A DNA stretch of 64,000 nt from Blepharisma japonicum (lineage: Eukaryota > Ciliophora > Heterotrichea > Heterotrichida > Blepharismidae): contig CATKHK010000056.1 in assembly GCA_949751835.1 (NCBI GenBank), positions 248,001-312,000 of the forward strand. The letters run 5' to 3'. Shown here piece by piece: positions 42,346-63,884 of this stretch. Within the stretch, counting starts at the first letter, position 1; every line of letters begins with the position of its first letter. The notes under the pieces were generated by a model, which searched no databases, had not been told where the DNA came from, and worked only from the letters and a program-made list of their open reading frames with translations. The position numbers were made by a program, and so were the translations under genes.

Positions 42346-43082
42346 GCTGCTTAAGAGTTACTCACACATTTTATATATTTTTTGCAATATATAAAGATAA
42401 AATATTTCAAAATTTTTCATCAATATTTACATATAAATTTTAAATTGTTTTATATAATCAGAACTTAATTATAAAATTAAAAAATTTTAAGAAAAGAGCT
42501 TCCATTATTTTTACATATATTGGATATATCCTGCTAAGCTTCCCTGCTTTATTACGCTGAGGTATGCATGGAATTATGCTGCAAATTTTACTCTTCTGTA
42601 AAAATACTTGTGATTTTCTGTATGTTTTTAAAAAAGACAGCTAGAGCAAGCCTAATTTTAGAAATAACTCTTCTCAGATATTGCAAAATTTATTTTCCAT
42701 TTTATATTATACAAATAATTTTCTTTTAAACTATGATTTATTATTGAAATGTAATTTAGAGGCAAAGAGAGGAAAGGCAGTGTTTATGAGCTTCATCAGC
42801 AATAATCTTCATCAAATTTGTGAAAAACACGGCCAGGTCTTCTCAATTTTCAATCCCTGCTGGACTGCAGCCAGAACTTGGATCTTACATCATTAATTAA
42901 TCCTGCTAGTTTCTAAATTTTATAGAATCTCAAAGTTCCTTAATACAGTTTTTTTTGCAACTATCTAGAGAGGATCTCCTGATTGTAAACTTATAACATC
43001 ATCCTAAAGATTTCTTAACTTTTTCTTTTTTTAAGCTAAAAGTGCAAATATTAACCCCTAAAATGTAAAAACTAAGAAGTCT
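42346..43082. other. Spacer between divergent Rab-like and kelch-like genes
   Basis: About 740 bp, duplicated at 46968-47644. It contains an open frame of about 70 codons (42681-42896) with a short conserved stretch, but the unit-2 copy has indels in it, so I do not call a gene. Confidence 0.45.
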
Positions 43083-43412
43083 ATGCTCTTAAATACGGCA
43101 AATAACTTAGAAGCAGAACAAAATCCCCGAATAGTTTGCTCGATTAATGAGAATCAGTGTTCTAATTCTAGTTTAGCGCTTAATCAATCAGATCAAGAAA
43201 ATAGCAAAACTCACTATCATATTAGTTCTCTTTACCTTATCATAAAAGATCGAGCAAGTAACAAGACTTCTTTGTTTGTTTATGATACTGAAAGAGAAAG
43301 AGAAGAAATAAAAGTGCTGAAAACCCCAGAATCGTTAGATAGCTCCACATGCATAACCCAACTTCCGAATTGTGAATTATTTTTCTTTGATAAATATCAA
43401 AATAATAAATAA
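43083..43412 (+). pseudogene. Kelch-like gene truncated by the duplication junction
   Basis: The first 105 or so codons match the intact gene at 47645 almost exactly. At about 43395-43405 the sequence jumps to the upstream flank of the next TPR gene and the frame ends within four codons. It has lost two thirds of the protein, including all later kelch-like repeats. Confidence 0.9.
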
Positions 43413-43528: not shown

Positions 43529-45520
43529 ATGAACACAAGACCTTGTTCTTTCCAAAACTGTAGAAGAAACGCTGAAGTTAAGTGCTTATGCACTTTTTCT
43601 CCTACATTTCTATGTAACCAGCATAACCTTGACCACATAAACAGTTCTGGAGGTGGCCACAGAGTTGTTCCCTCCTGAGCTTCAGATGAATGAATTGCAA
43701 ACCAGGATCACATTATTACTCTTGATGATTTAAAGTCTAAAATTGAATTAGCTAAACAAAAATCCATAAATGCAACTACTGATATCATCATAAAATTAGA
43801 TAAAACCTTAAAATATATTCTTTCGACCTTTGACTCTCAATTGGAATCTATAGACCATCATCTTTTACAATTAGTCAAAAATAACAGTGCTGCTATTAGT
43901 TATTCTCGGTATAGAACTCCTGCTGAAGAAATACAGAGATGCTGCATATCTAGCAATGAAATATTAAACAAAATTGAAGACTTTAGCAAGCTTATGGAAT
44001 GTATTGGCAATCTTATCAAAAATATAAATTTTAATGATTTGCAAATATATGAAATAAGCTTTAACTTTCAGAAGGAAATTAATAAAATAAGCCAAAATAA
44101 AGAGATAGGAAAATTAGCTGGAGAATTAGAAAAATGAAATAAATTTATAGACTCATGGAATGAAGACACTAAAAATTATGCTACCTCAAATAGCTATTGG
44201 CATTTTAAGCAGGGAATGCTTAAATATTATTGCGGAAAATGAAGTGAGGCTCTTAGCTCTTTTAATCTTGCTATAAAATTACAGCCGGATTATTTAGATG
44301 CGATTTTTTACAAAGGTTTATCTCTTGCAAGATTAAAAAAAATTGGATCTGCAATAGAATCATGAGACAATATTATTCAAATTGATCCAACTTTTTCAAT
44401 AGTCTATATTTTGAAAGCGCTAGAAGATCAGAGCCGAAATAGACTTAAAGAAAGTATTAATTCCTATAACGAATTATTTGTAATAGGCTTAGAAAATAGC
44501 ATTTTAGAATTTCTAAAGCTTGACGCCTTAGTTGAAAAGCAATCATACGAAGAAGCCTTGATTTTATCTAATAAAATAATTGAAGATTGCCCTACCTTTA
44601 GTTTCGCTTATGGCCAAAAAGGTTCAGTTCTTTATAAGCTAGGCGAAGAACAAGAAGCCTGGCAATGCTATTTAGAAGCTAATAATGATCAAAGTTATCA
44701 TCAGATTTATTTTAACTTTGCACTTATTTCGTTAGAAAAAGAACAATTAGAAGATGCATTGTATTATCTTGAATTAGCTATTAGTATTTCTGAATTTGAA
44801 GAGCATTATTATCGCACTAAAGCAGAAATTCTTGAAAAACGCAACGAAATACAAGAAGCGAAAAATTGTTGAGAAAAAATAATTGAAATAAATCCTGATA
44901 GCGATTGAGTTTACAATCATATTGGAGAGCTTCTTTTAAGCGACAATAAATTTGCAGATGCAATACGTTACTTTAACAAATCAATTAAATTCAATCCGAC
45001 TCTTGCATCTGCATATTTTAATAAAGGAAATGCTCTAGTTAAAAGTGGGCAAAACGACGAAGCTCTTCGAGCTTATAAAGAGGCTTTAATAATAGACAAT
45101 AAATTAGCTGAGGCTTGCTTTGAAATCGGGAATATTTACTTCCATAAAGAAAAATATGATGTATCCAGAAAATATTATGATCGAGCCATAGAAATTAATC
45201 CAAATCACTCACTTGCTTATACGAATAAAGGAATTACATTAAAACTTGAAAACAGGACTGAAGAAGCTAAGGATTGTTTATATGTAGCCTTAAGTCTTGA
45301 TCCGAATAATCATTTTGCGCATTTTAATCTGGCTGAAATTTTATGTTATGAAAATAGGCATAGAGATTCCATAGAGTACTTTAATAAGGCAATTCGCAAT
45401 AATCCTAATAATCCAGAATATTATGAGGCCAAGGGAAAAGCTCTTAAGATTATAGGCAACGATCAAGATTCTTTGAAATGTCTTTTTGAAGCTACTAGGC
45501 TGAGAAATATTAAAAGGTAA
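43529..45520 (+). CDS. B-box-like zinc finger / TPR protein, copy 2
   Basis: 663 aa, open throughout with TGA as Trp. It keeps the same zinc pattern as copy 1 (RPCSFQNCRRNAEVKCLC, then LCNQH and DH), the coiled segment and the TPR array. Differences from copy 1 are mainly substitutions plus in-frame losses: one Ala in the EANNDQ segment, and fewer Asp codons in the GQNDEALRAY segment. KNCW here replaces KKCL in copy 1. The predicted role is again a TPR adaptor of unknown partners. Confidence 0.88.
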
Positions 45521-46423
45521 TAATAAATGCACTAGCATGCTTAATAAATAATAATCTTCTCTTCAGCAGCTACTAAGTTTAATATATTTTCCTTATGCTA
45601 CCATTTTTTTGATTTTATAACAAACTTTATAAATTTGCAAATGAAAATGTTCCGAATGATTCTTATTTAATCTCTTTTGCGATTTAATTCAGACTTCTTT
45701 TGCCGTTTAATAATTATATTGAAATTCTTAATAATAATAATAATAATTATTTTGCTTGTGCAATGCTAAAGCTTAAATATTTAACCATACTTTAAAATAT
45801 ATCTTTATTATAATCCCTAATTTTATGACGACTTTTATTTTCATTTTTAAACAGAATATTAAGTAAACTTTTTAGATTTATTTATTCAAATTCTAGCATT
45901 TTTCTACATAAAGTTTGATTTAAACAAAATTGAAAAAGTGATTTTAGTTTTTAGCCTAATTTTGCTATGTAAATTTATATCTTTAAGAAAATATTTTTCT
46001 ATTTTTTCAGTATTTAGAAATATATATAAAAGAGTAATGCTGCTATATAAATAAAATTTCCACCGATCAATAAATCAATAAATTTATGCCCATTAGAAAT
46101 TCATTTTATTTTTTCTTGGCTCGTTTATTTAAGGGAATATTTCACAATAATTATATAATAATATTGCGTCTCTTAAATCTCTTTTTATGCATAATTAATT
46201 TAATAATTAATATTTTTATCATTTTCTAATAGTTAAAATTTATTTTAGCAATTATTCAATGATAATATATGCCTATATGTTTGCTTTTTATGATAAAAAA
46301 TGCATAGTCTAAAGCTAATCTGGGTGTAAATTATTAGTTTGGTTTAAGAGTTTTCTATAGTGTAAAGTTTGATTGGTCTGATTTTTTAATTTTATTTTAT
46401 TCTATTATATATTTTATTCGCCT
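45521..46423. other. AT-rich spacer between convergent genes in unit 2
   Basis: About 900 bp corresponding to 40885-41801; no gene seen. It includes an AAT microsatellite at about 45730-45747 not present in unit 1. Confidence 0.45.
45730..45747. repeat. AAT trinucleotide microsatellite
   Basis: About six AAT units in the spacer downstream of TPR copy 2; the equivalent place in unit 1 has no such run. Confidence 0.7.
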
Positions 46424-46967
46424 TTACTTGATTCTTGAATTGCGAGTCTTATTAATAGTTTCATATAATGTCCTAATAGCTCATTCTATATTAAAACCTG
46501 TTTTCGCAGACGCTTCTATATATAAAATATCCCACTCATCAGCTACTTTTTTAGCTTCTTCATATGAGACTTCTCTTTGAATTTTTAAATCACATTTGTT
46601 TCCAATCAGCATTGTCAAGCTGTCTTTTTGGCCAGAATTTTTAATATAACTCATAAATAGCTTCACGTCCTCAAGTGAATTTCTATCAGTTACGCTAAAT
46701 ATAAGAAGAAAACCTAAACTGTTTCGATAATAAGGAAGAGTAATATTTCTAAATCTCACATCGCCTCCTGTGTCTCATGTTTGTAATATAAAGGAAACAT
46801 ATTTGTATTTATCAAATTTGCTTATAAACCTATTTTTCTATAGTCAGAATTACAAAATCTACGCCTATTGTAGGAGTATATGTTTCTCTGAAAATGTCAT
46901 CAAAGTATTTAAGGAGAATTGATGTTTTGCCAGTGCCAGAATTTCCTATAGTGCAAAATTTAATCAT
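46424..46967 (-). CDS. Divergent Rab-like small GTPase, copy 2
   Basis: 175 aa after removing the 16-nt intron 46838-46853. Motifs: G1 GNSGTGKTS (canonical here, unlike copy 1), G2 TPTIGVDF, G3 WDTGGDVRF, G4 GNKCDL, G5 EASAKTG. It shares with copy 1 the Asp in place of the switch II Gln and the lack of C-terminal Cys (ends NSRIK). Since both copies stay open and keep the unusual G3, the change predates the duplication and is probably tolerated or selected. It converges with TPR copy 2 and diverges from the kelch-like gene. Confidence 0.88.
46838..46853 (-). other. 16-nt spliceosomal intron in Rab-like copy 2
   Basis: Identical to the intron of copy 1 (GTAATTCTGACTATAG) and at the same codon position. 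Confidence 0.9.
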
Positions 46968-47644
46968 GCTGCTTAAGAGTTACTCACACATTTTATATAT
47001 TTTTTGCAATATATAAATTTTAAATCGTTTTATCTAATCAGAACTATAAAATTTAAATTTGTTAAGAAAAGAACTTCCATTATTTTTACATATATTGGAT
47101 ACATCCTGTTAAGCTTCCCTGCTGAGGTACGCTGGAATTATGCTGCAAATTTTAATCTTCTGTAAGAAAACTTGTGATCTTCTGTATGTTTTTCAAAAAG
47201 ACAGCTAGAACAAGCCTAAATTTAGAAATAACTCTTCTCAGATATTGGAAATTTTATTTTCCATTTTATATTATACAAATAATTTTCTTTTAAACTATGA
47301 TTTATTATTGAGAGGCAAAGACAGAAAAAGACAGTGCTTATGAGCTTTATCAGCAATAATCTTCATCAAATTTGTGAAAAACAAGGGCCAAATCTCCTCA
47401 ATTTCGATCCCTGCTGAACTGCGGCCAGAACTTGGATCTTACGTCATTAATTAATCCTTCTGGAACTGTTAGTTTCTAAATTTTATAGAATCTCATTGTT
47501 CCTTAATACAGTTTTTTTGCAACTATTTAGAGAGGATCTCATAATTGTAAACTTATAGCATCGGCCTAAAGATTCCTTAACTTTTTCTTTTTTTAAGCTA
47601 AAAGTGCAAATATTAACCCCTAAAATGTAAAAACTAAGAAGTCT
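46968..47644. other. Spacer between divergent Rab-like and kelch-like genes, unit 2
   Basis: About 680 bp matching 42346-43082 with several indels; presumably promoter sequence for both genes. No gene is called. Confidence 0.45.
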
Positions 47645-48565
47645 ATGCTCTTAAATACGGCAAATAACTTAGAAGCAGAACAAAATTCCCGAATAGTCTG
47701 CTCGATTAATGAGAATCAGTGTTCTAATTCTAGTTTAGCGCTTAATCAATCAGATCAAGAAAATAGCAAAACTCACTATCATATTGGTTCTCTTTACCTT
47801 ATCATAAAAGATCGAGCAAGTAACAAGACTTCTTTGTTTGTTTATGATACCGAAAGAGAAAGAGAAGAAATAAAAGTACTGAAAACACCAGAATCGCTAG
47901 ATAGCTCCACATGCATAACCCAACTTCCGAATTGTGAATTATTTTTCTTTGGTAAATATCCAATTTCTGGAATCTCATTGGTAATTGATACTAATTATGA
48001 AGCTAGGAAGATGCCATCTGGAATACCTTGTAGCTATTCATCGAGTATCTATTTTAAAAGATCTGTCTATTGCTTTGGAGGATATGCAGATAATGTTAAT
48101 GTTTTAGCTCTATCTACTAGGTTTGATTTGGATTGAAAGCGATGGATAAAGCTATCCCCAATGCCACAATCCGATTTTTCATGCCATAGTATAATCTGCA
48201 ATGGGAATATTTTAATCTCTGGTTATAAAAGTAGAAACCTTTGGCTATATACAGTAGATATAGACTCTTTTTCCACAATCCCTTATGACTTTAAAGATGA
48301 TGCAAAAAAGATCCTAATAAAGGCAGAGAGGCTGTATTTGATTGAGTGCAGCATATGTGGATTGATATATGAGAGTGAAATTGGAGATGAGTATACCTGA
48401 AAACAAATGACAAATTCAATGATTAATTATTACCCTGATCAAGTTTATTGCTCTTATAATAAAGGATGAATTTATATTGGATGTTTTAGAAGAGCTAACT
48501 GTGAGTGCTATAAGTTTAGTCTGGATAAAAAAGAGGTGATTAAATTAAATCGAAATAAACTTTAA
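47645..48565 (+). CDS. Kelch-like beta-propeller protein, intact copy
   Basis: 306 aa with TGA as Trp (for example FDLDWKRWIKLSPMP). Kelch-type signatures are present though degenerate: SIYFKRSVYCFGGY, then a Trp/Met/Pro strand, SIICNGNILISGY and RNLWLYTVDIDSF; each shows the hydrophobic-GG/SG-then-aromatic spacing of a propeller blade. The N-terminal 60 residues are polar (Asn/Ser/Glu-rich). Kelch propellers bind proteins; no BTB or other effector domain is seen. The start at 47645 matches the conserved start of the truncated copy in unit 1. It could be somewhat longer at the N-terminus. Confidence 0.75.
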
Positions 48566-48954
48566 TTATTAAACAGCTAATGTGAAATCTCACTTTATTT
48601 TTATAGAATAACAATTTATACATAAGCTGCCTCTGGATTTTTAACCAATGAATTGGCATATTAAAATATTAAATTTTCAAAAGTATAGACTAGTATTCAT
48701 ATTGCTAAGGTGGAGCAAAGAACAGTTGGCAAATATCGACTAAACATGAATTTTCCAATTTGGGTTGTCTCTCAACCCATGGCAAAATATTTAATTATCC
48801 TAGTTATTTAGGTAACGCTTATGAAACCTTAACAATAAACTTTCAGAACTATAGCACGAAACAATTCATTATTCCGTCCCCTGAGTGAGAAAAATTGTTT
48901 TTATTTGTTGAAAAAGGCTTAAAATTGTATATAATACTTGGATAAATCCCTTAA
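48566..48954. other. Intergenic region
   Basis: About 390 bp; no gene or repeat recognised. Confidence 0.4.
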
Positions 48955-51308
48955 GCAAATTTTTTCGATTCGTTAATTCAGATTCTAACTTCATTAACAT
49001 TATTTTTTATAATTCAACAATAAGCTTGGTTTAAACAAAATTCAAAATGTGACTTTAAGTTTTTGACTCTCATTTTGCTATGTAAATCTTTAGCTTTTAG
49101 AAAATATTTTTCGGCTTCTTCAGGATTTATAAATAAATTTGAAACCGCAATATTGTTATCTAAATTAAATATAACTTCGGATGATTCAGGCTTTATTCCA
49201 AAAATGTATAAAGCCTTTACATAATAATCAATAGATTGTTTTATCTCTTGCTTCATTCCATAAAAAACACCTAAATATAGGAATAAATTACCTAATTTTG
49301 GATTATCATAGACAAGACATTGTTCAAAAAGTTTGGTTGACTCCAAAAATAAATCAATAGCGGCGTCACATTTACTGTATAAGTAATATAAAATGCCTAT
49401 GAGGTAATTAAATTTAAAAAATTGCCATTTATCTAATAATCTTTTTGAGTTTAAATATATTTTTCATTTCATAAACCATGATTCAGATTCTTCATAATCT
49501 TTTAAATAAATACTTTTGAATGCACATAAACAGTAAATTTCGCCTTTTTCATCATTATCATGTTTCAGCAACACTTTTCTATTTTGCTGTCAAATATCAA
49601 TAAGAATATTAACCTGATCTATATTCCGACTAAATAAATAAAATGTGCATAAAATATCATAAAACAAAAAGCTATTATTGTTTTGATCCTTCAACTTCTC
49701 TATTTTTTCATTTAATCTCTGTATTCGATTATCAAATTCATTGAAATTGTGAGTTATAATATAAAATTCCAAAATATTAAGCTCAATAATAAAATAAAGC
49801 CAATTAGAGTTAGGATTTTTTTGACATAAATTAATGCTTCTTCGCAAAAATAGCTCACATTTTTCAAAATTTACTATATTCCATTTAATATTTCCAAGAA
49901 TCCTGTACGTAGAACTAAATTTCATAGTTTCTATAAACTCAGAATTTTTGCATAATTTTAAACAACTTTTTGCCATTTTTTGAGCTTGCTTAAATTCAAA
50001 ATTTTTTAAATAGAGCTCAGCCAGTTTAAGATATATATCTATCAGATTTTTTTTTGTTGTATTTCTGTGATTTATTTTTTGCTTTAGAAAATGCTGTTTG
50101 ATTTTTCAAAGTTATTCAGATTATTATAAACTTCTCAAAGTTTAAAATGCAAATTAATTGAAATTTGATAATTTTTTTGGATTTTTTTTCAGAGATTTAT
50201 ACCCAAAATGTACTTTTCTATTGCTATTTCATATTCGCCTTTCAAAATATGAAATTCTGCGATATTTAAATACCAATTCTGCAAATCAGAGTGCGAGTTA
50301 ATGGCAGAAGAATCAATGAAATTTTCGCATTTATCATAGTAAATTTTTGCATTTGCTAAATCTAGTCTGCTTTGATATAAAAAACCAAGATAAAGTCAAA
50401 TATAAAATTTTTCTCTCTCATCTTGAACTCCTTCTTCGCATTCTAGGGTATATTTTATAGCATTTTTATATTTTTCTTATAGAAACATAAATCCTTGACG
50501 CTTCATAAGCAATTAAATTTTTTTTATCAGGAAATGTGCATATGAGATTCTTTGTAGTTTTCTTTATTGATAAACTTATTTCTGCTGCTTCTTTTTCTCT
50601 TGAAATTTGATCTGTCACACTTAAAGCTAAATTTAAAATTTCTTTACAAATATTTGGATATGAAATTACTTTTTCACTTATTGACTTGCACAATAAAAAT
50701 GATTTTTTAGCATAGTCATATTTTTTAAACCATAAGTACTCAATACCTCTTTGGTAAGTAAAAGCAAATAAATCTTTATTATTTTCTAAAATCCAATTAA
50801 TTTCACATCCCATTAGATCAATGAGTGCAAAATAATTAAAATTGTAAATATGAAGGATAATTTTTTTAATTTGTAAAAAATCTATCACATCGTTTTGGAA
50901 TATATTTTGTATGGAAATTTCTTCAATAAATTTATTTGTTTCATGCTGAGGTCTACTCAAAAAGAATTCTATTGGGCTAAGAAACAAATCATTTTTAATA
51001 TATTTTGCATTCTGAACAAATTCCAATAGATTGTCAATTTGCTTAATTTGCCTGCATAATTCACTATAATATCTTGCATCTGCTATAGGTAGAGATAGCC
51101 TTGAATTTATAATAGATTTTATTTGCTCTAAATATAAAAATAATTTCTTTCGAGACTCTTCGTCAATATTTTTGTATAAACTTATAATCATTTTGTTTAA
51201 TAAATCAGAGCACTTGTGATCTTCTACATGATTTTTGCAAAGATAGATGGAGCAAGTGCACAAGTTTAATGCATCTTCTCCGCAGACTTCGCAAATTATA
51301 TTTTCCAT
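48955..51308 (-). pseudogene. Zinc-finger/TPR family 2, copy A (frameshifted)
   Basis: Begins with an open 280-codon stretch: MENIICEVCGEDALNLCTCS with a B-box/HIT-like Cys/His pattern (C6, C9, C17, C19, C24, H27, H31, C33). Near 50480 small deletions shift the frame (SIENY becomes SIRK followed by a stop). Further indels occur between 49980 and 50460, while later blocks (49590-49976 and 49014-49346) are open again. Homology to copy B fades at about 48955. Probably a pseudogene, though the conserved 5' part could still encode a truncated zinc-finger protein. Confidence 0.8.
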
Positions 51309-51409
51309 TTAATTATTATCGAATTACAAATTATTTCTATAATTTATGATTGAAATAAAATCTAAACTAAAATCTGTATAATATTTAAAGTTAAATATTT
51401 TAATACCTA
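51309..51409. other. Upstream flank of TPR family 2 copy A
   Basis: Similar to the upstream flanks of the family's other copies (53320-53400, 59735-59845, 63039-63150), including the AATAAAATCTAAACTAAAAT stretch; probably promoter sequence. Confidence 0.5.
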
Positions 51410-51620
51410 CTGGCATGCTATATTTTTATAATAGATTTTTATTTCGAATCTTGAATTATGAAGCTATGGAATTTTTCATATAAGCCTAATGGTGCATTTT
51501 ATATTATATCCTGTTTTAAAGAACTTATATATATAAATTATCCCTCTAACCCAAATTTTAGCTTGTTTATTAGAGTTTTTCGTGATTTATAGTTGCATTT
51601 TATTTGCAATTATATTTCAA
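51410..51620 (-). pseudogene. Decayed Rab-like 3' relic upstream of TPR copy A
   Basis: Aligns with the 3' coding part of the Rab-like genes: the region from the C-terminal helix back past ASAK towards NKCD, with landmarks equal to ATTCTATATT and CATTTATTTxCAAT. It is strongly diverged and not open. The same relic lies upstream of TPR copies B and C. Confidence 0.55.
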
Positions 51621-51710
51621 AATATTTTTTGTGCAAAATCATTATATAATCCAATCATAGATTCAATTCTTAAGTGGCTACTCTTTAGATTATTACTTGC
51701 CTCATAGTTA

Positions 51711-53060
51711 ATATATGAGTAATCCATTTTCTCGTAGTAATTTAAAACATATAGAAATTAAAACTTAAGTTTGTCAGAGATTTTTAAAATCAACAAAATA
51801 TAATAAAAGAGTTTTATTTTCAATTTAATAATAAGTTGACCTATTTTATTTATTAATTTGGGCATAATTTAAAATTAAAATATTATGCTTATAATTGCTC
51901 GTATAACCCAAATTTGGCAATAGACTGAGATTGTGTTTGAGAGAATTTGATTAGAAAAGTTTGCAGTCTCATCGCCTTCCAAAAAAACTAAAATGTGTCC
52001 TGCACACCCAGATTCTATAAAAAACAAAATTTCTCTTAAAACTCAAAAATCTCCTCATAAATTTCTGATTAATAAATATGAAATATACATAAAATATGTA
52101 AAAATCGCAAGCAGTCCATATATCTTACATATCTTTCACTCATTTTCCTCTAAATTAAAACTGTTTTTGCGCTTTTCCTTGAATTCTTTTCAAATATCTA
52201 CCAAATATTTAAGAGTTGTGTCATAGGAAAGGATAAAATAAATGATAAGGAGAAATGCAATTATAAATGAAAAATATAAAAAAATACAAAAATACAAAAA
52301 ATCAAATAAATCAAGCTCAGAGTAAAAAATTCATTTCAGAATGAATACTGTATTGATAATAGTAAAAATTTTATATTTTCCTAAGATATTATAAAACTCT
52401 AGCATTCAAAAATCTTCATATTTTATTTTTGCTCATGTCAATAAATAAATTCCAAGCATTATTGCAAATAAGATAAAATATTCAGATTTTTCTGCCGAAA
52501 AATGATAGAGTAAAAGGAAAAAAGAATTTAACATTCCAAGAAGGGCAGATCTCTTTGCTTTTAGAGATTGTCATCTATGATAGGACATAAAAATTAAAGA
52601 TAGGATACCTGAAACTCAAAAGCTAATTCAATAGATGACATTTGTATATTGAAGAAGATTGAGAATCCAAATTCATAAAAATCTTAACAAGTCTTTTAGG
52701 TTGAAATCTTTTAATAACAAAAGCCCTGAGGAATTTAGAAAAAATGAGATTTCGATCTGGTAAGAGTCAAAAAGCGCTAAAGGAATATAGTTTACAAAGA
52801 AAAGCAAAAATCAACTAAATACAGCTTTTTCACCCTTTTCAGTTGGACCTAAATACTTTTGGGAATAAAATCAGTCAAAAATTGCCAAGCTAAAAATAAT
52901 AATTCAGATAACCATTTTATAAGCTTATAATGTGATAGGAGAGTCAGTTAGGCCATTTTAATTGGCAATAAGATTTTCAGCTAAGACTATTAGTAGGAGT
53001 ATATCTTGGCAGAAAATCAGTTTAGGTAGGCCTTAAAAGATAGTATTATTGAAAAATGAG
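51711..53060. repeat. Membrane-gene duplication, unit 1
   Basis: Matches 53815-55255 from the AGTAATCCATTTTCTCGTAG block downstream of the gene to the AGTTTAGG...TTGAAAAATGA block upstream. It carries one multi-pass membrane gene. Confidence 0.85.
51875..52915 (-). CDS. Multi-pass membrane protein, paralogue 1
   Basis: 346 aa, open from the ATG at 52913-52915 to the TAA at 51875-51877 only if TGA is Trp; the chain uses many TGA codons, so standard-code gene finders would miss it. About seven to eight hydrophobic segments are visible, starting MVIWIIIFSLAIFDWFYSQK, with others including WFLLFFVNYIPLALF, SEYFILFAIMLGIYLLTW and FLYFCIFLYFSFIIAFLL. Short charged loops (KEFKEKRKNSFNLEENEWK) separate them. 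No known transporter or receptor signature is recognised. Two paralogues lie at 53974 and 55514. Function unknown. Confidence 0.8.
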
Positions 53061-53074
53061 ATCAATCATAACCA

Positions 53075-53320
53075 TTTATAATATCTTGCATCTATTATAG
53101 GTAGAGATAGACTTGAATTTATAATAGATTTTATTTTGCTCTAAATATAAAAATAATTTCTTTCGAGACTCTTCGTCAATATTTTTGTATAAACTTATAA
53201 TCATTTTATTTAATAAATCAGAGCACTTATGATCTTCTGCATGATTTTTGCAAAGATGGTGGAACAAAAGCAAAAGTTTAATGCATCTTCTCCACAGACT
53301 TCGCAAATTATATTTTCCAT
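53075..53320 (-). pseudogene. 5' fragment of zinc-finger/TPR family 2
   Basis: Matches roughly the first 80 codons of the MENIIC gene, including KCSDLLNKMIISLYKNIDE, but with frameshifts in the zinc finger. It is cut off near 53070, where membrane-gene flank sequence begins. Confidence 0.85.
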
Positions 53321-53639
53321 TAATTGTTATAGACTTACAAAGTATTTCTATAATTTATGATTGAAATAAAATCTAAACTAAAATGTGTATGATATTTAAA
53401 ATTAAATCTGCACTAATATAAAAATTCATATCTAAATTTCACTTTATCTTGAAGGATTACTAAAAATTTTGGGGCTATATTTAATGGCCTCTTTATAGTT
53501 TCTGTAGAGACATAGACCATAAAAATTAATTTGTATAAGTTGGTAAAGAGCATTGCAGAGTCTTTATTAATAAATAATAATCATTTCTTCTCTGACAATA
53601 AATATTCTTATATTTGAAAGATAGTTGCATTTAACAGAT
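53321..53639. other. Intergenic mosaic sequence
   Basis: Flank of the TPR fragment followed by AT-rich sequence with no clear match. Confidence 0.35.
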
Positions 53640-53765
53640 TTACTCTTAAAACTTCAATTCTATAGTAAAATATACATTATTGTACAGCTAAAAATCCCAT
53701 CAAAGTATTTTTGAAGAATTGAGATTTTTCCAGTTTCAAAATTATCTAAAAAGCAAAGTTGTACC
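53640..53765 (-). pseudogene. 5' fragment of a Rab-like gene
   Basis: On the minus strand it reads from an ATG at 53763-53765 with a decayed G1 motif (ETGKIS) and QKYFDGIF, matching the first 26 or so codons of the Rab-like genes at 42345/46967. The switch I and intron region is only partly recognisable and the rest is absent. Confidence 0.65.
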
Positions 53766-53973
53766 ATGCTGCTTCTTGAGAATTACTAATTAATTTTAAA
53801 TTAATTTTACAATATAAGAGTAATCCATTTTCTCGTAGTAATTTAAAAACATATAGAAAAAAAACTTAAGTTTGTAGGAGATTTAAAATCAACACCCTAG
53901 AATAAAAGAGTATTATTTTCAATTTAATAATAAGCTGACCTATTTTTTTTATTAATTTGGGCATAATTTAAAA

Positions 53974-55114
53974 TTAAAATATTATGTTTATAATTGCTCG
54001 TATAATTCAAATTTGGCAATAGACTGAGATTGTGTTTGAGATAATTCGATTAGAAATGTTCGCAGTCTCATCACCTTCCAAAAAAACTAAAATGTTTCCT
54101 GTACACCCAGATCCTATAAAAAACAAAATTTCTCTTAAAACTCAAAAATCTACTCATAAATTTTTGACTAATTCATATGAAATATACATAAAATATGTAA
54201 AAATCACAAGCAGTCCATATATCTTGCATATCTTTCACTCATTTTCCTCTAAATTAAAACTGTTTTTTCGCTTTACCTTGAATTCTTTTCAAATATCTAT
54301 CAAATATATAAGAGTTGTAACATAGGAACGGACAAAATAAATTAAAAGGAGAAATGTAATTATAAATGAAATATATAAAAAAATACAAAAATACAAAAAT
54401 TCAAAAAAATCAAGTTCAGGGTAAAAAATTAATTTCAGCATGAACACTGTATTGATAATAGTAAAAATTTTATATTTTCCTAATATATTATAAAACTCTA
54501 GCATTCAAAAATCTTCATATTTTATTTTTGCTCATGTCAATAAATAAATTCCAAGCATTATTGCAAATAAGATAAAATATTCAGATTTTTCTGCCGAAAA
54601 ATGATAGAGTANNNNNNNNNNNNNNNNNNNNNNNNNNNNNNNNNNNNNNNNNNNNNNNNNNNNNNNNNNNNNNNNNNNNNNNNNNNNNNNNNNNNNNNNN
54701 NNNNNNNNNNNAAAGGAAAAAAGAATTTAGCATTCCAAGAAGGGCAGATTTCTTTGCTTTCAGAGGTTGTCATCTATGATAGGACATAAAAATTAAAGAT
54801 AGGATACCTGAAACTCAAAAGCTAATTCAATAGATGACATTTGTATATTGAAGAAGATTGAGAATCCAAATTCATAAAAATCGAAAAAGGTCTTTTAGAT
54901 TGAAATCTTTTAATAACGAAAGCCCTGAGGAATTTAGGAAAAAGGAGATTTCAATCTGGTAAGAGTCAAAAAGTGCTAAAGGAATATAGTTTACAATGAA
55001 AAGCAAAAATCAACTAAATACAGCTTTTTCACCCTTTTCAGTTGGATCTAAATACTTTTGAGAATAAAATCAGTCAAAAATTGCCAAGCTAAAAACAATA
55101 ATTCAAATAACCAT
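53974..55114 (-). CDS. Multi-pass membrane protein, paralogue 2 (contains the N gap)
   Basis: Collinear with paralogue 1 from the ATG at 55112-55114 to the TAA at 53974-53976, with many TGA-Trp codons and the same hydrophobic segments (for example LEFYNILGKYKIFTIINTVF). The span is 1141 bp; without the 100 Ns it is 1041 bp, exactly the length of paralogue 1. The bases flanking the Ns (GATAGAGTA and AAAGGAAAAAAG) join to reproduce the uninterrupted paralogue sequence. If so, the gene is intact at 346 aa. Function unknown. Confidence 0.7.
54612..54711. other. Assembly gap (100 N)
   Basis: A run of exactly 100 N, a conventional placeholder of unknown size. Comparison with 52500-52520 suggests that little or no sequence is actually missing. 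Confidence 0.95.
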
Positions 55115-55255
55115 TTTATAAGCTTATAATTTGATAGAAGGCCATTTTAATTGACAATAAGATTTTCAGCTAAGACTAGTTAGTAGGAGTATATCTTGGC
55201 AGAAAATCAGTTTAGGCAGACCTTAAAAGATAGTATTATTGAAAAATGAACTCAA

Positions 55256-55513
55256 TCTTTGAATCTATCTGCGAAATTTAAATCTGATTATCAGTTTAAA
55301 ACTTTGTAAATATAAATAAAAAATAAATTTATTTTAAGGCTTTTCTTCTTGCAAATTTCATTAAGAATATTTTGGCTAGAACTTTATTCTAATCTGATAT
55401 TAGATTGAAAAATAATCTTTTTCTGAAGAAAAACTATCGACAAAGTAGTCCAGAATATATCCACTAGAAAAAAGTAGTGGCTAAAAACATGCCACAGAAT
55501 TTACGTATGTCTC
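55256..55513. other. Intergenic region
   Basis: About 260 bp, AT-rich; nothing recognised. Confidence 0.4.
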
Positions 55514-56527
55514 TTAAATTATTACTATAAAAATTCTCCTAACTATCCAAACTAGACTATTTACTGAGAAAAAATTTAATATCAGCTGAGCAACGTAATT
55601 AGCATTCCCATATTCTGGATAAATTAAAATTTCTCCTATTTTCCCAGCAGCAATAAAGATCATTAATTCTCTTAAAACTCAAAATTCTCCTCATAGATTT
55701 TCAACTAAATTATAAGCCAGATATAGGGCATATGTAAAAAATATAATGAGACTATAAATCTTGCATATTTTTCATAAACACTCTTCAATATGGATAAATT
55801 TTTGGCGTTTTTCTAGAAGTTCTGCTCAAATTAATGCAAAAAACTTATAAGTAGATACATAGCAAGTTAGAAAATAAGAACTTATTAAGCACACTATAAC
55901 AACATAAAAACAAAAAATAAGCAAAAATAATAAAATATCAAAAATATCGTGATCGAAAAAAATTCTCTTTAGTGTGAAAATTGTTGCAACGATCATAAGA
56001 TTAATGTAATCCATAATAATACCAGATAAACATTCTCTTCTTTGACCAAGGTAGGTGAGCTTAATATGTGTTAGTATAAATAATTCAATAGATATTGCAT
56101 ATAACATAAAATACTCACTATTTGCTGATGAAAAATTGTAAAGCAATAAGAAAATAGAATTTAGATTTGCAAAATAGAATGATCAAAATGCTTGTCTGCC
56201 TTCAGATGTTTTATATAATGTAGCTACGGATGCAAATCCAGATATCCAAAATCCATATCAATAAATTTTTCCTGGATATTCAAGAAGCAAGCCATATAAA
56301 ATTTTTAAATTGCTTGCAGGATCGATATTGCTGAGAAACGTATATTCTTCATATGAAGAAATTTCATTTTGATAAGCTTCAAAAAATGCCAAAGGGATAT
56401 AGTTGATAAAAAATAAGAAAATGCAAGAATAAGAAACTTTTTCTTGATCTCTAGCTTGTGATAAATATTTTGCAGCATAAAATAAATCAAAAATGATCAA
56501 GCACAACAAAAAAACAAAGATAGCCAT
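55514..56527 (-). CDS. Multi-pass membrane protein, paralogue 3 (diverged)
   Basis: 337 aa with TGA as Trp, from the ATG at 56525-56527 to the TAA at 55514-55516. Same layout as paralogues 1 and 2: MAIFVFLLCLIIFDLFYAAK, CIFLFFINYIPLAFFEAYQ, NSIFLLLYNFSSANSEYFML, ILLFLLIFCFYVVIVCLISS, and a final part resembling NLWGEFWVLRE. It is clearly homologous but much more diverged than paralogues 1 and 2 are from each other, and stays open, which suggests the family is under selection. Function unknown. Confidence 0.8.
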
Positions 56528-56594
56528 TTTAGGTAGTTATTTTTATAAAGATAAATGGAAAGCAAAAGGCTTAAAAAAATAGCAAAGAACAATG

Positions 56595-56904
56595 ATTTAA
56601 TAGATATTCAAAAGTATCTTACTTTAAGAGATCTAATTGATTTGAATTCATGAATAATAAATATGGCGAGAGGACATGCAACTTCAAATGGATAACTATA
56701 ATAGGCAAGGCATTGTTCAAAAAATTTGGTTGACTCCAAAAATAAATCAATAATGGCGTCATATTTACTGGATAAGTTATATAGAATGCCTATGAGGTAA
56801 TTAAATTTAAAAAATTGCCATTTATCTAATATGTTAGGTATATTTAGGTTTGGCCATTTTGGATCTGAAAAAAGATGGTTAGTGATTAATTCTCTTATCT
56901 TCAA
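56595..56904 (-). pseudogene. Internal fragment of zinc-finger/TPR family 2
   Basis: The segment DKWQFFKFNYLIGILYNLSSKYD...AIIDLFLESTKFFEQCL matches a TPR block of copy B (DKWKLFQFNSLIAILYSLSG), joined to unrelated sequence on both sides. No start or zinc finger; a relic. Confidence 0.75.
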
Positions 56905-57067
56905 AACTTAATCTTTAATCTTTTGGAATTCTGATATTTTATTATCTAATATCTTCTTTACTGCACTTGTCAGGAAGAGCTATTAATACTTAAATTATTA
57001 TTCTGCTTAAAAATTTAATAATTATGAATACAATAAACAAAAGCTAATTGGTTTCTATATAGATAAT
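56905..57067. repeat. 3'-flank element of TPR family 2, copy 1 of 3
   Basis: A noncoding block starting near CTTAATCTTTAATC and containing AGGAAGAGCTATTAAT and AATTATGAATACAATAAACAAA. It precedes the 3' end of TPR copy B and recurs at 60205-60370 (before copy C) and 63885-64000. Confidence 0.8.
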
Positions 57068-59734
57068 TTAAATTAATAAAAGATTTAAAATTAAGGGGGC
57101 ATTATCGTTTATTGGGGCAGATGCATTTTTCTCGATAAAAATCTGGGAGTATTTTTTCATGTATTTTTCACTTTTACCGGTTTGATTCATCTTTTTATAA
57201 CAAATTGCAATAAATTTATATAATTTTACAAATAAAATGTGCTTCTCAGAATAATTCTTCTTTAGACGCTTTAATGATTTAATTAAAACTTCCTTTGCTT
57301 TTTGATAATTATATTCTGTTCCTCATACGGTAGCTTTCATATAGCTCCGTTCAACAGAATTGACTATTTTATTATAAGTAAACTTTTTAGATTCATTTAT
57401 TCAGATTCTAGATTCAGCGGCATTATCTTTTATATAAATTCAATAATAAGCTTGGTTTAAACAAAACTCGAAATGCGATTTTAAGTTTTTGATTCTAATA
57501 TTACTATGTAAATCACTAGCTTTTCGAAAATATTTATCGGCTTCATCAGTATTTATAAATATATTTGAAACCGCAATATTGTTATATAAGTTAAATACAA
57601 TTTCAGATGATTCAGGTTTTGTTCCAAAAATGTATAAAGCTTTTACAAAATAGTCAATAGATTGTGTTGCCTCTTGTTTCAATGCATAAAAAATACCTAG
57701 ATTAATAAATAAATAACCTAATATTAGATTATCGTAAATAAAACTTGTTTCAAAATATTTTGTTGACTCCAAAAATAAATCAATAGCAGCGTTATATTTA
57801 CCGGATAAGCTATATAAAATCGCTATAAGAGAATTAAATTGAAACAATTTCCATTTATCTAATAATCTTTTTGAGTTTAACAATATTTTTCATTTCATGA
57901 GCCATGATTCGGATTCTTGATAATCTCTTAAATAAATACTTTTTAATGCACATAAACAATAAATTTCGCCTTTCTCATCACTATCATGCTGCAGTAGTAC
58001 CCCCCTATTACGTTGCCAAATATCAATGAGAGTATTTATCTTATCTGCATTCTGACTAAATAAATAAAAAGTGCATAAAATATCATAAAATAAAAAGCTG
58101 TTATAGTTTTTATTCTTCAAATTCTCTATTTTTTCATTTAGTCTCTGTATTCGATTATCAACTTCACTGAAATTGTGAGTTATAATATAAAATTTCAAAA
58201 TATTAAGCTCAAGAATAAAATAAAGCCAATTAAAATTAGAATTTTTTTCACAAAGTTTAAGGCTCCTTCTCAAAAATAGCTCACATATTTCGAAATTTCC
58301 TTCATTCCATTTAATATTCCCAAGAATCCTGTATACAGAACTAAAACTTATAATTTCTATATACTCAGAATTTTTGCATAATTTTAAACATTTTTTTGCC
58401 ATTTTTTGAGCTTGATTAAATCCAAAATTTTTTAAATAGAGCTCAGACAGTTTAAGATATATATCTATCAAATTTATTTTTTTGTATTTCTGTGATAAGT
58501 TTTTTGCTTTTAGATAATGCTGTTTTGATTTTCCAAAATTGTTCAGATAATTATAAGCTTCTGCTAGTTTAAAATGAAAATTAATATAAATTTGATAATT
58601 TATTGGATTTTTCTTACATAGATTTATGCCAAAAATATACTTTTCTATTGCTATTTCATATTCGCCTTTCAAAATATGAAATTCTGCGATATTTAAATAC
58701 CAATTCTGCAAATCTGATTGTGAGTTAATGACAGAAGAGTCAATGAAATTTTCGCATTTATCATAGTAAACTTTTGCATTTTCGAAATCTAGTCTGCTTT
58801 GATATAAAAATCCAAGATAAAGTCAAAGATAAAATTTTTCTTTATCGCTTTGAACCTCTTCTTCGCACTCTAGGGTATATTTTATAGCTTTTTTATAATT
58901 TTCGATAGAAATATAAATCCTTGACACTTCATAAGCAATTAAATTTTTTTTAGTAGGGAAGGCTCTTTGGAGATCCTTAACAGTTTGCTTTATTGATAAA
59001 CTTATTTCTGCTGTTTCTTTTTCTCTTGAAATTTGATCTGTCACACTTAAAGCTAAATTTAAAATTTCTTTACAAATGTTTGGATATGAGATTACTTTTT
59101 CACTTATAGACTTGCACAATAAAAATGATTTTTTAGCATAGTCATATTTTTTAGACCATAAGTACTCAATACCTCTTTGGTAAGAAAAAGCGAATAAATC
59201 TTTATTATTTTCTAATATCCAGTTAATTTCACATCCCATTAGATCAATGAGTGTAAAATAATTAAAATTGTAAATATGAAGGATAATTTTTTCAATTTGT
59301 AAAAAATCTATCACATCGTTTTGGAATATATTTTGTAAGGAAATTTCTTCAATATATTTATTTGTTTCATGCTGCGTTCTACTCAAAAAGAATTCTATTG
59401 GGCTAAGAAACAAATCATTTTTAATATATTTTGCATTCTGAATAAATTCTAATAAATCGTCAACTTGCTTTATTTGTCTGCATAATTCACTATAATATCT
59501 TGAATCTGCTATAGGTAGAGATAGACTTGAATTTATAATAGATTTTATTTGCTCTAAATATAAAAATAATTTCTTTCGAGACCCTTCGTCAATATTTTTG
59601 TATAAACTTATAATCATTTTATTTAATAAATCAGAGCACTTGTGATCTTCTACATGACTTTTGCAAAGATAGATGGAGCAAGTGCACACATTTAATGCAT
59701 CTTCTCCGCAGACCCCGCAAATTATATTTTCCAT
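57068..59734 (-). CDS. Zinc-finger/TPR protein family 2, copy B (apparently intact)
   Basis: 888 aa, one frame with TGA as Trp from MENIICGVCGED at 59734 to the TAA at 57068-57070. An in-frame ATG seven codons upstream exists, but MENIIC is the start shared by all copies. The N-terminal zinc pattern is C6-x2-C9-x7-C17-x-C19-x4-C24-x2-H27-x3-H31-x-C33 (B-box or HIT-like). The rest is helical with tetratricopeptide-type repeats (NWYLNIAEFHILKGEYEIAI, FHFKLAEAYNYLNNFGKSKQ, YLFINLGIFYALKQEATQSI). Probably a protein-interaction scaffold; partners unknown. It is the only copy of this family without a visible frameshift in the window. Confidence 0.85.
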
Positions 59735-59849
59735 TTTATTTTTATAGAAATGCATAATATCCGATTTAATTTTTTGTAATTTATGGCTGAAATAAAATTT
59801 AAACTAAAATCTATATGATAAATAAAGTTAAATATTTTAATACCTAGAA
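59735..59849. other. Upstream flank of TPR copy B
   Basis: Conserved with the flank of copy C (63039-63154); presumably promoter. Confidence 0.45.
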
Positions 59850-60058
59850 TTATGCTATATTTTTATAATGAATTTTTATTTCGAAATCTTGAATTAAAAG
59901 CAATGAAAGTTTTATATCAGCCTAATGCGCATTCTATATTATATTCTGCTTTAAAGAACTTCTATATATATAAAATATGTCTCATCAAAGGCCAAATTTT
60001 AACTTCTTTATGTGAGAGTTATCGTAATTTTTTAAATCGCATTTATTTACAATTATAA
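59850..60058 (-). pseudogene. Decayed Rab-like 3' relic upstream of TPR copy B
   Basis: Collinear with the Rab-like gene 3' part: ATTCTATATTATATTCTGCT versus the gene's ATTCTATATTAAAACCTG, CTTCTTTATGTGAGAG versus CTTCTTCATATGAGAC, and CGCATTTATTTACAAT versus CACATTTATTTCCAAT. Frame lost. The plus-strand ORF here is a shadow. Confidence 0.6.
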
Positions 60059-60204
60059 TTCAAAATATCTTTTCGGCAAAATCATTATATAATTCAATTA
60101 TAGATTCAATTCTTAAGTGAATGCATATCAGTTAATCAAATACTTTTTATTGAGGTTTAGCCATTTTGGGGCTAAAAAAAGATGTGGTTAATTCTTTTAT
60201 CGTC

Positions 60205-60370
60205 AGAGCTTAATCTTTAATTTTTTTGGAATTCTGATATTTCATCATCTAATATCTTTTTTACTGCGCTTATCAGGAAGAGCTATTAATGCTTAAATTA
60301 TTATGCTAATTAAATATTTAATAATTATGAATACAATAAACAAATGCTAATTGGTTTCTATATTGATAAT
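60205..60370. repeat. 3'-flank element of TPR family 2, copy 2 of 3
   Basis: Same element as 56905-57067, directly before the 3' end of TPR copy C. Confidence 0.8.
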
Positions 60371-63038
60371 TTAAAATAATAAAAAATTGAAATCTAAGGG
60401 AACATTATCATCTATGGTAACAGGAGCATTTCTCTTGATCAAAATCTGGGCGTATTTTTCCATGTATTTTTCACTTTTATCGGTTTGATTCATCTTTTGA
60501 TAGCAAATTGCAATAATTTTATATAATTTTTCAAATAAAAAGTGCTCTTTAGAATAATTCTTCTTTAGACGCTTTAATGATTTAATTAAAATTTCCTTTG
60601 CTTTTTGATAATTATATTCTATTCCTCATATGACTGCTTCAATATAGTTCCGTTCAACAGAATTGACTATTTTATTATAAGTAAACTTCTTAGATTCATT
60701 TATTCAGATTCTAGATTCAGTAGCATTATCTTTTATATAAATTCAATATAAGGCTTGGTTTAAACAAAAATCGAAATGTGATTTTAAGTTTTTGATTCTA
60801 ATATTACTATGCAAATCACTAGCTTTTCGAAAATATTTATCGACTTCATCAGTATTTAGAAATATATTTGAAACCGCAATATTGTTATATAAATTAAATA
60901 TAATTTCAGATGATTCAGGTTTTGTTCCAAAAATATATAAAGCTTTTACAAAATAGTCAACAGATTGTGCTGCCTCTTGTTTCAATCCATAAAAAAGACC
61001 TAGATTAATGAATGAATAACCTAATATTAGATTATCGTAAACAAGGCTTATTTCAAAATATTTTGTTGACTCCAAAAATAAATCAATAGCAGCGTTATAT
61101 TTATTGGATAAGCAATATACAGTCGCTATGAGAGAATTAAATTGAAACAATTTCCATTTATCTCGTCATCTTTTTGAGTTTAACAATATTTTTCATTTCA
61201 TAAACCATGATTCGGATTCTTGATAATTACTTAAATAAAGACTTTTTAATGCACATAAACAGTAAATTTCACCTTTCTCATCACTATCATGCTGCAGCAG
61301 TACCCCCCTATTACGTTGCCAAATGCCAATAAGAGTATTTACCTTATCTGCATTTTGACTAAATAAATAAAAAGTGCATAAAATATCATAAAATAAAAAG
61401 CTGTTATAGTTTTTATTCTTCAAATTCTCTATTTTTTCATTTAATCTCTGTATTCGATTATGGACTTCACCAAAATTGTGAGTTATAATGTAAAATTCCA
61501 AAATATTAAGCTCAATAATAAAATAAAGCCAATTAAAGTTAGGATTGTTTTCACAAAATTTAAGGCTACTTCTCAAAAATAGTTCACATTTTTCGAAATT
61601 TCCTTCATTACATTTAATATTCCCAAGAATCCTGTATACAGAACTAAAACTTATAATTTCTATAAACTCAGAATTTTTGCATAATTTTAAACATTTTTTT
61701 GCCATTTTTTGAGCTTGCTCAAATTCCAAATTTTTTAAATAGAGCTCAGACAGTTTAAGATATATCTATCAGATTTATTTTTTTGTATTTCTGTGATAAG
61801 TTTTTTGCTTTTAGGTAATGCTGTTTTGATTTTTCAAAATTGTTTAAATAATTATAAGCTTCTGCTAATTTAAAATGAAAATTAATATAAATTTGAAAAT
61901 TTGTTGAGTTTTTCTTACATAGATTTATACCAAAAATATACTTTTCTATTGCTATTTCATACTCGCCTTTCAAAATATGAAATTCTGCGATATTTAAATA
62001 CCAATTCTGCAAATCTGGTTGTGATTTAATGGCAGAAGAGTCAATGAAATTTTCGCATTTATCATAGTAAACTTTTGCATTTTCGAAATCTAGTCTGCTT
62101 TGATATAAAAATCCAAGATAAAGTCAAAGATAAAATTTTTCTTTGCCGCTTTGAATCCCTTCTTTGCACTTTAAGGTATATTTTATAGCTTTTTTATAGT
62201 TTTCGATAGAAATATAAATCCTTGACACCTCATAAGCAATTAAATTTTTTTTATCAGGAAATGTGCATATGAGATTATTCTTTGTAGTTTGCTTTATTGA
62301 TAAACTTATTTCTGCTGTTTCTTTTTCTCTTGAAATTTGATCTGTAACACTTAAAGCTAAATTTAAAATTTCTTTACAAATATTTGGATATGAAATTACT
62401 TTTTCACTTATCGACTTGCACAATAAAAATGATTTTTTAGCAGAGTCATATTTTTTAGACCATAAGTACTCAATACCTCTTTGGTAAGAAAAAGCGAATA
62501 AATCTTTATTATTTTCTAATATCCAATTAATTTCAGATCCCATTAGATCAATGAGTGTAAAATAATTAAAATTGTAAATATGAAGAATAATTTTTTCAAT
62601 TTGTAAAAAATCTATCACATCGTTTTGAAATATATTTTGTATCGAAATTTCTTCAATAAATTCATTTGTTTCATGCTGCGGTCTACTCAAAAAGAATTCT
62701 ATTGGGCTAAGAAACAAATCATTTTTAATATATTTTGCATTCTGAACAAATTCTAATAAATCGTCAACTTGCTTAATTTGTCTACATAATTCACTATAAT
62801 ATCTTGCATCTGCTATAGGTAGACATAGACTTGAATTTATTATTGATTTTATTTGCTCTAAATATAAAAATAATTTTTTTCGAGACCCTTCGTCAATATT
62901 TTTGTATAAACTTATAATCATTTTGTTTAATAAATCAGAGCACTTGTGATCTTCTACATGATTTTTGCAAAGATAGATGGAGCAAGTGCACACATTTAAT
63001 GCATCTTCTCCGCAGACTTCGCAAATTATATTTTCCAT
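60371..63038 (-). pseudogene. Zinc-finger/TPR family 2, copy C (single 2-nt frameshift)
   Basis: Very close to copy B over its whole length and open from MENIICEVCGED at 63038 to about 61760. There one AT dinucleotide of an ATATATAT tract is missing relative to copy B, so the frame runs into a stop after LIDIS. Downstream (61729 to about 60371) the other frame is open to the homologous stop. Either a recent pseudogene or a homopolymer/dinucleotide assembly error; the rest of the gene shows no damage. Confidence 0.8.
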
Positions 63039-63154
63039 TTTATTTTTATAGAATGGTATATCTCCAATTTAAGTTTTGTAATTTATGACTGAAATAAAAT
63101 TTAAACTAAAATCTATATGATAAATAAAGTTAAATATTTTAATACCTAGAATTA
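63039..63154. other. Upstream flank of TPR copy C
   Basis: Like 59735-59849. Confidence 0.45.
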
Positions 63155-63360
63155 TGCTATTTTTTATAATGAATTTTTATTTCGAAATCTTGAATTAAAA
63201 GCAATGAAAGTTTCATATCAGCCTAATGTGCCTTCTATATTATATTCTGCTTAAAAGAATTTCTATATATATAAAATATGTCTCATCAAAACCCAAATTT
63301 TAACTTCTTTATGTGAGAGTTATCGTAATTTTTTAAATCGCATTTATTTACAATTATAAT
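63155..63360 (-). pseudogene. Decayed Rab-like 3' relic upstream of TPR copy C
   Basis: Nearly the same as the relic at 59850-60058, so it was duplicated together with the TPR gene. Confidence 0.6.
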
Positions 63361-63884
63361 TAAAAATGCTATGCCTTGCTATTTCACTCTTTTCTATCAA
63401 TAAAAGTTATGATAAAAATGCTTGCCTATGATTTTCGAGACTTTTAGACCTAATACATCATTTCAGTACTTACAGAATTCAATATATGAGTACATGTACC
63501 GATGATTTTTATATGAGTAATATAAACTAAAGAATTTAAGAAACTTCTGATTAGACTTTTTTTCAATATACCCCTGTCTTCAAAACTTGTAATTTTTTAG
63601 GATTTCATATCTGTTAGTAGCTTTTAAAGGTAAGAATAAGAGCACAAACCAACTTCAAAGCATTTAATTATTTAATTTTGGTTTACCAGACCTTTTTGGC
63701 AAGTAAAAAGCATTTTATATTAAATTTGTATTTGTCTAACTCAATTTTGTTTCGGTACCCCGGATTTCTTTCCTTTCCAACGATTTACCCATTTTTCCTT
63801 CTTCTACCAACCAACCCCCCTTTTCCAGCACAATTTTTTGTGCATTCCTTTTTCCACCTTTTATGAGCAGGATAAAGCAGTATA
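63361..63884. other. Intergenic region with a pyrimidine-rich tract
   Basis: No gene is supported. At about 63745-63860 the plus strand is unusually C/T-rich (CCCC and TTTCC runs) compared with the A/T-rich spacers elsewhere. The ORF there (63678-63866) has an odd composition and no homologue among the repeats. Confidence 0.4.

Follow-up and report, generated by a model that had tools for sequence, protein, structure and literature searches.

The 64,000-nucleotide (nt) window analyzed here (contig C56, positions 248001-312000; coordinates given without a contig name refer to this window) contains, at 48951-63378, an interleaved set of genes and gene relics from three unrelated families, i.e., tetratricopeptide repeat (TPR) proteins with a putative N-terminal zinc site (Zn/TPR), Rab-like proteins and multi-pass membrane proteins. 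This region very likely belongs to a lineage-specific tandem array in which linked segments were copied head to tail and genes were then lost copy by copy. The copied segments would have carried a Rab-like gene next to either a Zn/TPR gene or a membrane gene, in any copy one of the genes could then have been lost, and the copying itself may have proceeded by unequal exchange. Copying followed by loss would leave live TPR genes beside dead Rab genes (48.9-63.4 kilobases [kb]), live Rab genes beside TPR remnants (41-47 kb) and, on contig C168, mostly a live membrane gene beside a dead Rab gene. Directly observed are the copies, the order, strand and state in which they occur, and the limitation of the close families to a small number of contigs.

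Multigene families in tandem arrays are generally modelled as evolving by birth and death. Tandem paralogues in mixed states of decay, which are among the marks of a birth-and-death tandem family, were found here, and the suggestion of such evolution in an initial annotation of this DNA is borne out by the head-to-tail copies, by the gradation from intact through singly broken to fragmentary states and by the confinement to few contigs. The array shares with the general model tandem duplication, a mixture of intact genes and pseudogenes and a local gene set, but differs from it in that three unrelated families occupy one array and the survivors vary by unit. We consider this sharing of an array, together with the fast-evolving Rab-like proteins, to be unusual.

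Genome setting and genetic code

The genome searched (45.2 megabases, 224 contigs) appears to be the somatic-type genome of a Blepharisma-like heterotrich ciliate, as judged from its genetic code, its tiny introns and its telomere repeat. Blepharisma stoltei uses UGA for tryptophan (Trp, W) and has introns of 15-16 nt and CCCTAACA telomeres (PMC9942806), and all three features were found here. Three tandem copies of CCCTAACA had 168 exact matches in the genome as compared to 0 for the control, and the plus-strand matches among the places listed all lay no more than 421 bases from the contig start. The WDTAGQE Rab box is encoded at 134 sites genome-wide, with TGA encoding the W at 23 of the 100 sites listed, and the introns of the Rab genes in the array measure 15 and 16 nt. 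All frames and translations were read with TGA=W. Genes of such ciliates are easily mistaken for relics if they are read without the UGA code and without removal of the 15-16 nt introns.

Gene content of the array

Every element in 48951-63378 is located on the minus strand. In descending order, the elements are a Rab remnant, TPR-C, a second Rab remnant, TPR-B, a TPR fragment, the membrane genes MEM3 and MEM2 (the latter containing a gap), a Rab N-terminal remnant, a TPR N-terminal fragment, MEM1, a further Rab remnant and TPR-A. The inventory in the initial annotation (TPR genes and fragments, three membrane paralogues and four Rab relics) thus held for all elements in both place and strand, and so did its grading of the TPR genes as one intact, one with a single frameshift and one heavily broken.

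TPR-B (57068-59755) is intact and encodes 895 amino acids (aa; 888 if translation starts with the ATG at 59734), with a Cys/His cluster followed by TPR repeats; it is open only under TGA=W (five TGA codons), and its match to Pfam TPR_12 (E 4e-21; 75.3 bits as compared to a curated cut-off of 30.1) places it among the TPR proteins. TPR-C (60371-63038), a copy of TPR-B with 93.7% DNA identity, has a 2-nt deletion in an (AT)n run near 61765 and no other break, as its only further length difference from TPR-B is an in-frame 3-nt insertion. TPR-A (48951-51308; 89.5% DNA identity to TPR-B) is broken by four single-base insertions or deletions (indels) and has lost its C-terminal part (about the last 100 codons). 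An additional intact gene, TPR-D (887 aa, minus strand), lies on C56 beyond the window end, at 64029-66692 in window numbering. Two TPR fragments were also found, one N-terminal (53069-53407; tblastn E 8e-17; blastn E 5e-140 against an array copy) and one corresponding to aa 626-674 of TPR-B (56697-56847). The three TPR copies in the window share the spacing C-x2-C-x7-C-x-C-x4-C-x2-H-x3-H-x-C. TPR proteins with a B-box-like Cys/His cluster at the N-terminus resemble them in both TPR repeats and Cys/His spacing; the array proteins differ in that Pfam gave no zinc-finger model at E 1, even though the spacing fits a zinc site.

MEM1 (51875-52915; 346 aa) and MEM3 (55514-56527; 337 aa, 40-41% identical to MEM1) are intact, while MEM2 (53974-55114), a close copy of MEM1, is interrupted by a gap of exactly 100 N (54612-54711); its halves on both sides of this gap are open and, when aligned to MEM1, apparently no letters are lost at the gap. 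A plain hydropathy count gives 4-7 hydrophobic segments for the membrane proteins. Neither MEM1 nor MEM3 had a Pfam match at E 1, MEM1 had no sequence match in the PDB at E 10, and a structure model of MEM1 with MEM3 was not usable (predicted local distance difference test score, 39.7).

Four pieces of Rab-like genes in this region exceed the chance level (blastn E 1.5e-21 to 4.5e-9). C-terminal remnants are located upstream of TPR-A (51438-51613; E 3.7e-10 for 51438-51547), upstream of TPR-B (59908-60134; E 1.5e-21) and upstream of TPR-C (63209-63378; E 4.5e-9 for 63209-63354), and an N-terminal remnant is located at 53616-53816 (E 2.5e-12 for 53688-53774; the part at 53616-53666 is weaker, E 0.001). 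The same blastn search gave one plus-strand row at chance level (58209; E 0.05), and the reversed sequence used as a control gave no row at E 0.1.

Rab-like genes with two predicted tiny introns

Two Rab-like genes on the minus strand of the window, located just below 48951 and missed in the initial annotation, are predicted to be intact. The first (46424-46991) encodes 178 aa after removal of introns at 46983-46969 (15 nt) and 46853-46838 (16 nt) and matches Pfam Ras over its last exon (E 9e-31); the second (41802-42369) also encodes 178 aa, with equivalent introns at 42361-42347 and 42231-42216. Both genes are broken in plain translation; removal of the 16-nt GT..AG intron, found at an identical site in both, opens the frame, and removal of the 15-nt intron, located directly after the start codon, yields a Rab-like protein start. 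Splicing of these genes is thus predicted, both because it restores the frame and because the copies on C168 have these two introns as well. The genes lie in a duplicated 3.4-kb segment (40000-43401 and 44642-47963; 90% identity), one in each copy. Each has remnants of a TPR gene on both sides, all on the minus strand: a C-terminal remnant downstream (45619-46057 and 40980-41435 for the first and second gene, respectively) and an N-terminal remnant upstream (47170-47311, blastn E 3.5e-9; 42606-42758, blastn E 8e-11). The possibility that every Rab-like copy near the window is a relic was rejected, as removal of the two tiny introns left 9 of 16 copies open, 5 broken and 2 as fragments; these 16 copies, some full-length and some partial, are those of C56 and C168 other than the four remnants of 48951-63378.

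These proteins have a Ras-type G domain that is closest to Rabs; a copy from C168 matched Rab3 best in the PDB (E 3.3e-42), followed by Rab1/YPT1 and Rab8. All nine intact copies keep the P-loop and NKxD. None has the catalytic Gln of WDTAGQE, none has a Cys in the last ten residues, where prenylation would be expected, and no site encoding WDTAGQE was found in the scanned stretches of C56, C168, C94 and C215. Poor GTP hydrolysis and a soluble state may be expected from these losses. Rab-like proteins without prenylation residues occur in Tetrahymena thermophila (Bright et al. 2010, PMC2954822), and the array proteins would be classed as Rab-like by the criterion given there. Both sets combine a Rab-related G domain with a lack of C-terminal lipid-attachment cysteines; the proteins described here differ in forming a tandem subfamily at one locus, in lacking the catalytic Gln in all nine intact copies and in their fast divergence, and the word "tandem" is absent from the main text of the Tetrahymena study (PMC2954822).

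A separate subgroup of Rab-like genes was noted on C168 (starts at 10004, 19684, 24137 and 31037). Its first intron has 16 nt, all four copies are broken, some of them apparently by a common break, and each adjoins an intact membrane gene.

Extent of the array and linkage of the three families

Contig C56 continues past TPR-D and a copy of MEM1 and stops at 317928, within another membrane copy. Contig C168 (36198 nt) consists mostly of array and probably continues C56, as its content and strand suggest. It carries one intact TPR gene, 14 Rab-like copies (7 intact, 5 broken and 2 fragments) and, among its membrane genes, 8 that are full-length and open, 4 that are broken (at 1.6, 17, 22 and 24.7 kb), one fragment near 16 kb and one truncated by the contig end. 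Among the 70 longest matches listed, head-to-tail copies share approx. 73-98% DNA identity. Segments of 2-3.5 kb that hold both partners show, in the examples examined, 89-95% mutual identity, and the C168 unit at 34-36 kb shows only 75-77% identity to other units.

In genome-wide searches, the close families were limited to a few contigs. With the TPR-B query, 15 rows were obtained, i.e., 12 on C56, 1 on C168 and 2 weak ones on C24, and when only the N-terminal part of TPR-B was used, other contigs contributed 9 rows with an E of 0.001 or lower. The N-terminal domain of a plus-strand Zn/TPR gene adjoining the array gave at least 112 rows at the same threshold, on many contigs and often clustered (2 of the 112 rows being the window's own; the best 150 of 329 candidates were scored, and counts are lower bounds). 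The domain type is therefore widespread, while the close TPR family is local. With a Rab-like query, for which the best 150 of 355 candidates were scored and counts are again lower bounds, 13 rows had at least 47% identity and all of them were on C56 or C168 (47-62% for the C168 rows); the other 137 rows had at most 45% identity. All 33 rows obtained with MEM1 were on C56, C168, C94 and C215, on the minus strand of their contigs in each case, and queries with two divergent members gave the same four contigs plus one weak row on C27 (E 6e-4). We regard this distribution, apparently that of an orphan membrane family on four contigs with one weak place on a fifth, as unusual. Overall, the co-location of the three families is real and, in the rows scored, the close TPR and Rab families are confined to C56 and C168.

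C94 (of which the first 20 kb were searched) and C215 (11.7 kb) carry additional membrane genes; no Rab or TPR match was found at E 0.001 in these stretches. Very divergent multi-pass membrane genes of approx. 315-342 aa were observed on the same strand at 7604-9648 of C94:10001-20000 and at C215:536-3338. A repetitive stretch at C94:15210-16158 has frames open on both strands, one of which starts like a secreted protein and has acidic, Cys-containing repeats.

The initial annotation had proposed that the three families might form a lineage-specific membrane-signalling module, and had set against this the case of families scattered across the genome without linkage. Such scatter was not observed for the TPR and Rab families, which are linked on C56 and C168, but the membrane family is partly independent, as it also occurs without them on C94 and C215. 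A selected module, in which the membrane protein would anchor, the Rab-like protein would switch and the Zn/TPR protein would scaffold, with linkage kept by joint action, would fit the presence of the close TPR and Rab families beside the membrane family on C56 and C168, an arrangement seen nowhere else in the rows scored. It would also fit the nine intact Rab-like proteins, which, without a lipid-attachment Cys, might depend on a protein partner for recruitment to a membrane. Copying alone yields co-location, however, and the recurring neighborhood can be explained by segments copied along with their neighbors, so that no joint function is needed.

The state of the neighbors also argues against a module. 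On C168, the Rab copy is located 189-261 nt upstream of the membrane gene in 6 of 11 measured copies and 818-2528 nt upstream in the other 5, and two further Rab fragments are located approx. 246 nt upstream of a membrane gene. Among the eight close Rab-membrane pairs, the membrane gene is intact in seven and the Rab gene in two, and both are intact in only one. Upstream of the full-size TPR copies, a Rab remnant instead of an intact gene was found in all five cases. Moreover, the Cys-rich N-terminal domain type occurs genome-wide (the at least 112 matches above), and the membrane clusters on C94 and C215 lack the other two families. Hence co-location stands, whereas a selected module is not well supported and, in our assessment, unlikely; most likely the three families would serve membrane-linked traffic or signalling separately.

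Reliability of the assembly

An alternative reading is that the mosaic was largely produced by the collapse or mis-joining of a repeat array during assembly. A stretch of 2576 nt (52036-54611) is identical letter for letter to C56:315353-317928, i.e., to the contig end, and directly precedes the 100-N gap in MEM2. This repeat is probably an assembly artefact, and one of its two copies may not exist; it affects MEM1, a portion of MEM2, a single TPR fragment and a single Rab remnant, but no TPR gene. The first 99 nt of C168 match the MEM1 region exactly, which would resemble a residue of short-read graph assembly. On the other hand, most copies are at least several per cent apart in sequence and have lesions of their own, which collapse does not readily make, and in the intact TPR and membrane genes the open frames are long and the ratio of nonsynonymous to synonymous substitution rates (dN/dS) is below 1. 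An artefactual origin of most of the mosaic is thus quite improbable.

Selection on the surviving copies

Pairwise dN/dS was estimated by the Nei-Gojobori method with TGA=W. The ratio ranged from 0.39 to 0.50 for TPR genes (3 pairs) and from 0.31 to 0.70 in 54 of 55 pairs of membrane genes (the 11 intact genes on C56 and C168; the genes on C94 and C215, broken copies and MEM2 were left out). For the Rab-like genes it ranged from 0.37 to 2.19 (36 pairs of 9 copies). Ordinary Rabs, represented by 5 of 8 loci chosen for WDTAGQE in an unbroken frame, gave 0.001 and 0.012 in the 2 of 10 pairs that were usable, as dS was saturated in the other 8. The ratios below 1 in the TPR and membrane genes suggest that the surviving copies are still used.

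These ratios also bear on whether the stretch could be germline-limited or otherwise unexpressed DNA in which all copies decay. The many broken copies, in a type of genome that is gene-dense according to PMC9942806, would fit such DNA. TPR and membrane genes show dN/dS of 0.3-0.7 in all but one pair rather than 1, and nine Rab-like genes keep splice sites and open frames, although they were chosen as open. We consider decay of the whole stretch quite improbable.

In the four young Rab-like copies on C168, alignment columns 31-90, from switch I to switch II, have 44 nonsynonymous as compared to 4 synonymous minimal changes (binomial P = 0.004 with a transition weight of 2 and P = 0.013 with a weight of 1; P = 0.027 as compared to the rest, Fisher's exact test). 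The excess was still found after exclusion of the copy with a 3-residue gap (P = 0.016-0.037) and with all seven C168 copies (P = 0.032), but it was not significant without columns 63-85 (P = 0.13-0.20) or in the other three C168 copies (P = 0.55). As nine region-by-group tests were made, as the signal depends on columns 63-85 and as it is absent from three copies, positive selection on the switch regions is only suggestive. In the rest of the protein, minimal counts did not differ from the neutral expectation. The approx. 93 changes in the four young copies should, in the absence of selection, have created 2.5-3.1 new stops, but the copies had been preselected as intact. Among the titles listed in a literature search, none was pertinent to Rab arrays under positive selection, and a search for Blepharisma with Rab and tetratricopeptide found none.

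A more far-reaching idea is that the array is a fast-evolving recognition locus, in which orphan membrane proteins would recruit soluble, non-prenylated Rab-like switches with unusual hydrolysis, switch regions would diversify by positive selection for copy-specific partners, and Zn/TPR proteins would act as scaffolds. We give this idea little credence. If it were true, self-recognition or mating compatibility would be a natural use, and the genes would be candidates for membrane parts of cell recognition, e.g., for the receptor of gamone 1, which is termed putative in PMC10892320.

It is highly improbable that the broken TPR copies function through tiny introns or frameshifting, as the window's Rab genes, which look broken and are open after removal of two tiny introns, might suggest, since no intron is needed to open TPR-B, TPR-D or the copy on C168. 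Relative to TPR-B, what breaks TPR-A and TPR-C is indels of 1-2 nt, and their rescue by introns was rejected.

Several observations weigh against a tandem array shaped by copying and loss. The membrane family clusters without Rab or TPR genes on C94 and C215, and the array therefore comprises more than one kind of unit. For MEM1 and a copy beyond the window, which make up the 55th membrane pair, dN/dS is 2.51 (10 nonsynonymous and 1 synonymous changes), and this pair lies partly inside the suspect 2576-nt repeat. The assembly of this stretch is unsafe. In the minimum-change count, no clear purifying selection was seen for the Rab-like copies, so that their use is argued from open frames in copies that were selected for openness. 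If the survivors are used, the array would be a compact natural experiment on the retention and loss of unrelated genes in one tandem array, and its Rab-like genes a set that lacks two defining Rab features and changes fast in protein sequence.

Neighboring genes

Two Zn/TPR genes on the plus strand (38887-40878 and 43529-45520; approx. 663 aa, 88% protein identity) adjoin the array; their type of N-terminal Cys-rich domain is the one searched genome-wide above. Just below the array, a plus-strand gene of 306 aa (47645-48565) has weak kelch matches. On C168, three other open frames are located between 26 and 29 kb (26.2-28.8 kb) and are perhaps kelch-like by eye. Farther away, at 886-6096 on the minus strand, a frame of approx. 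1736 aa shows an ABC-transporter signature by eye in a chance-level row.

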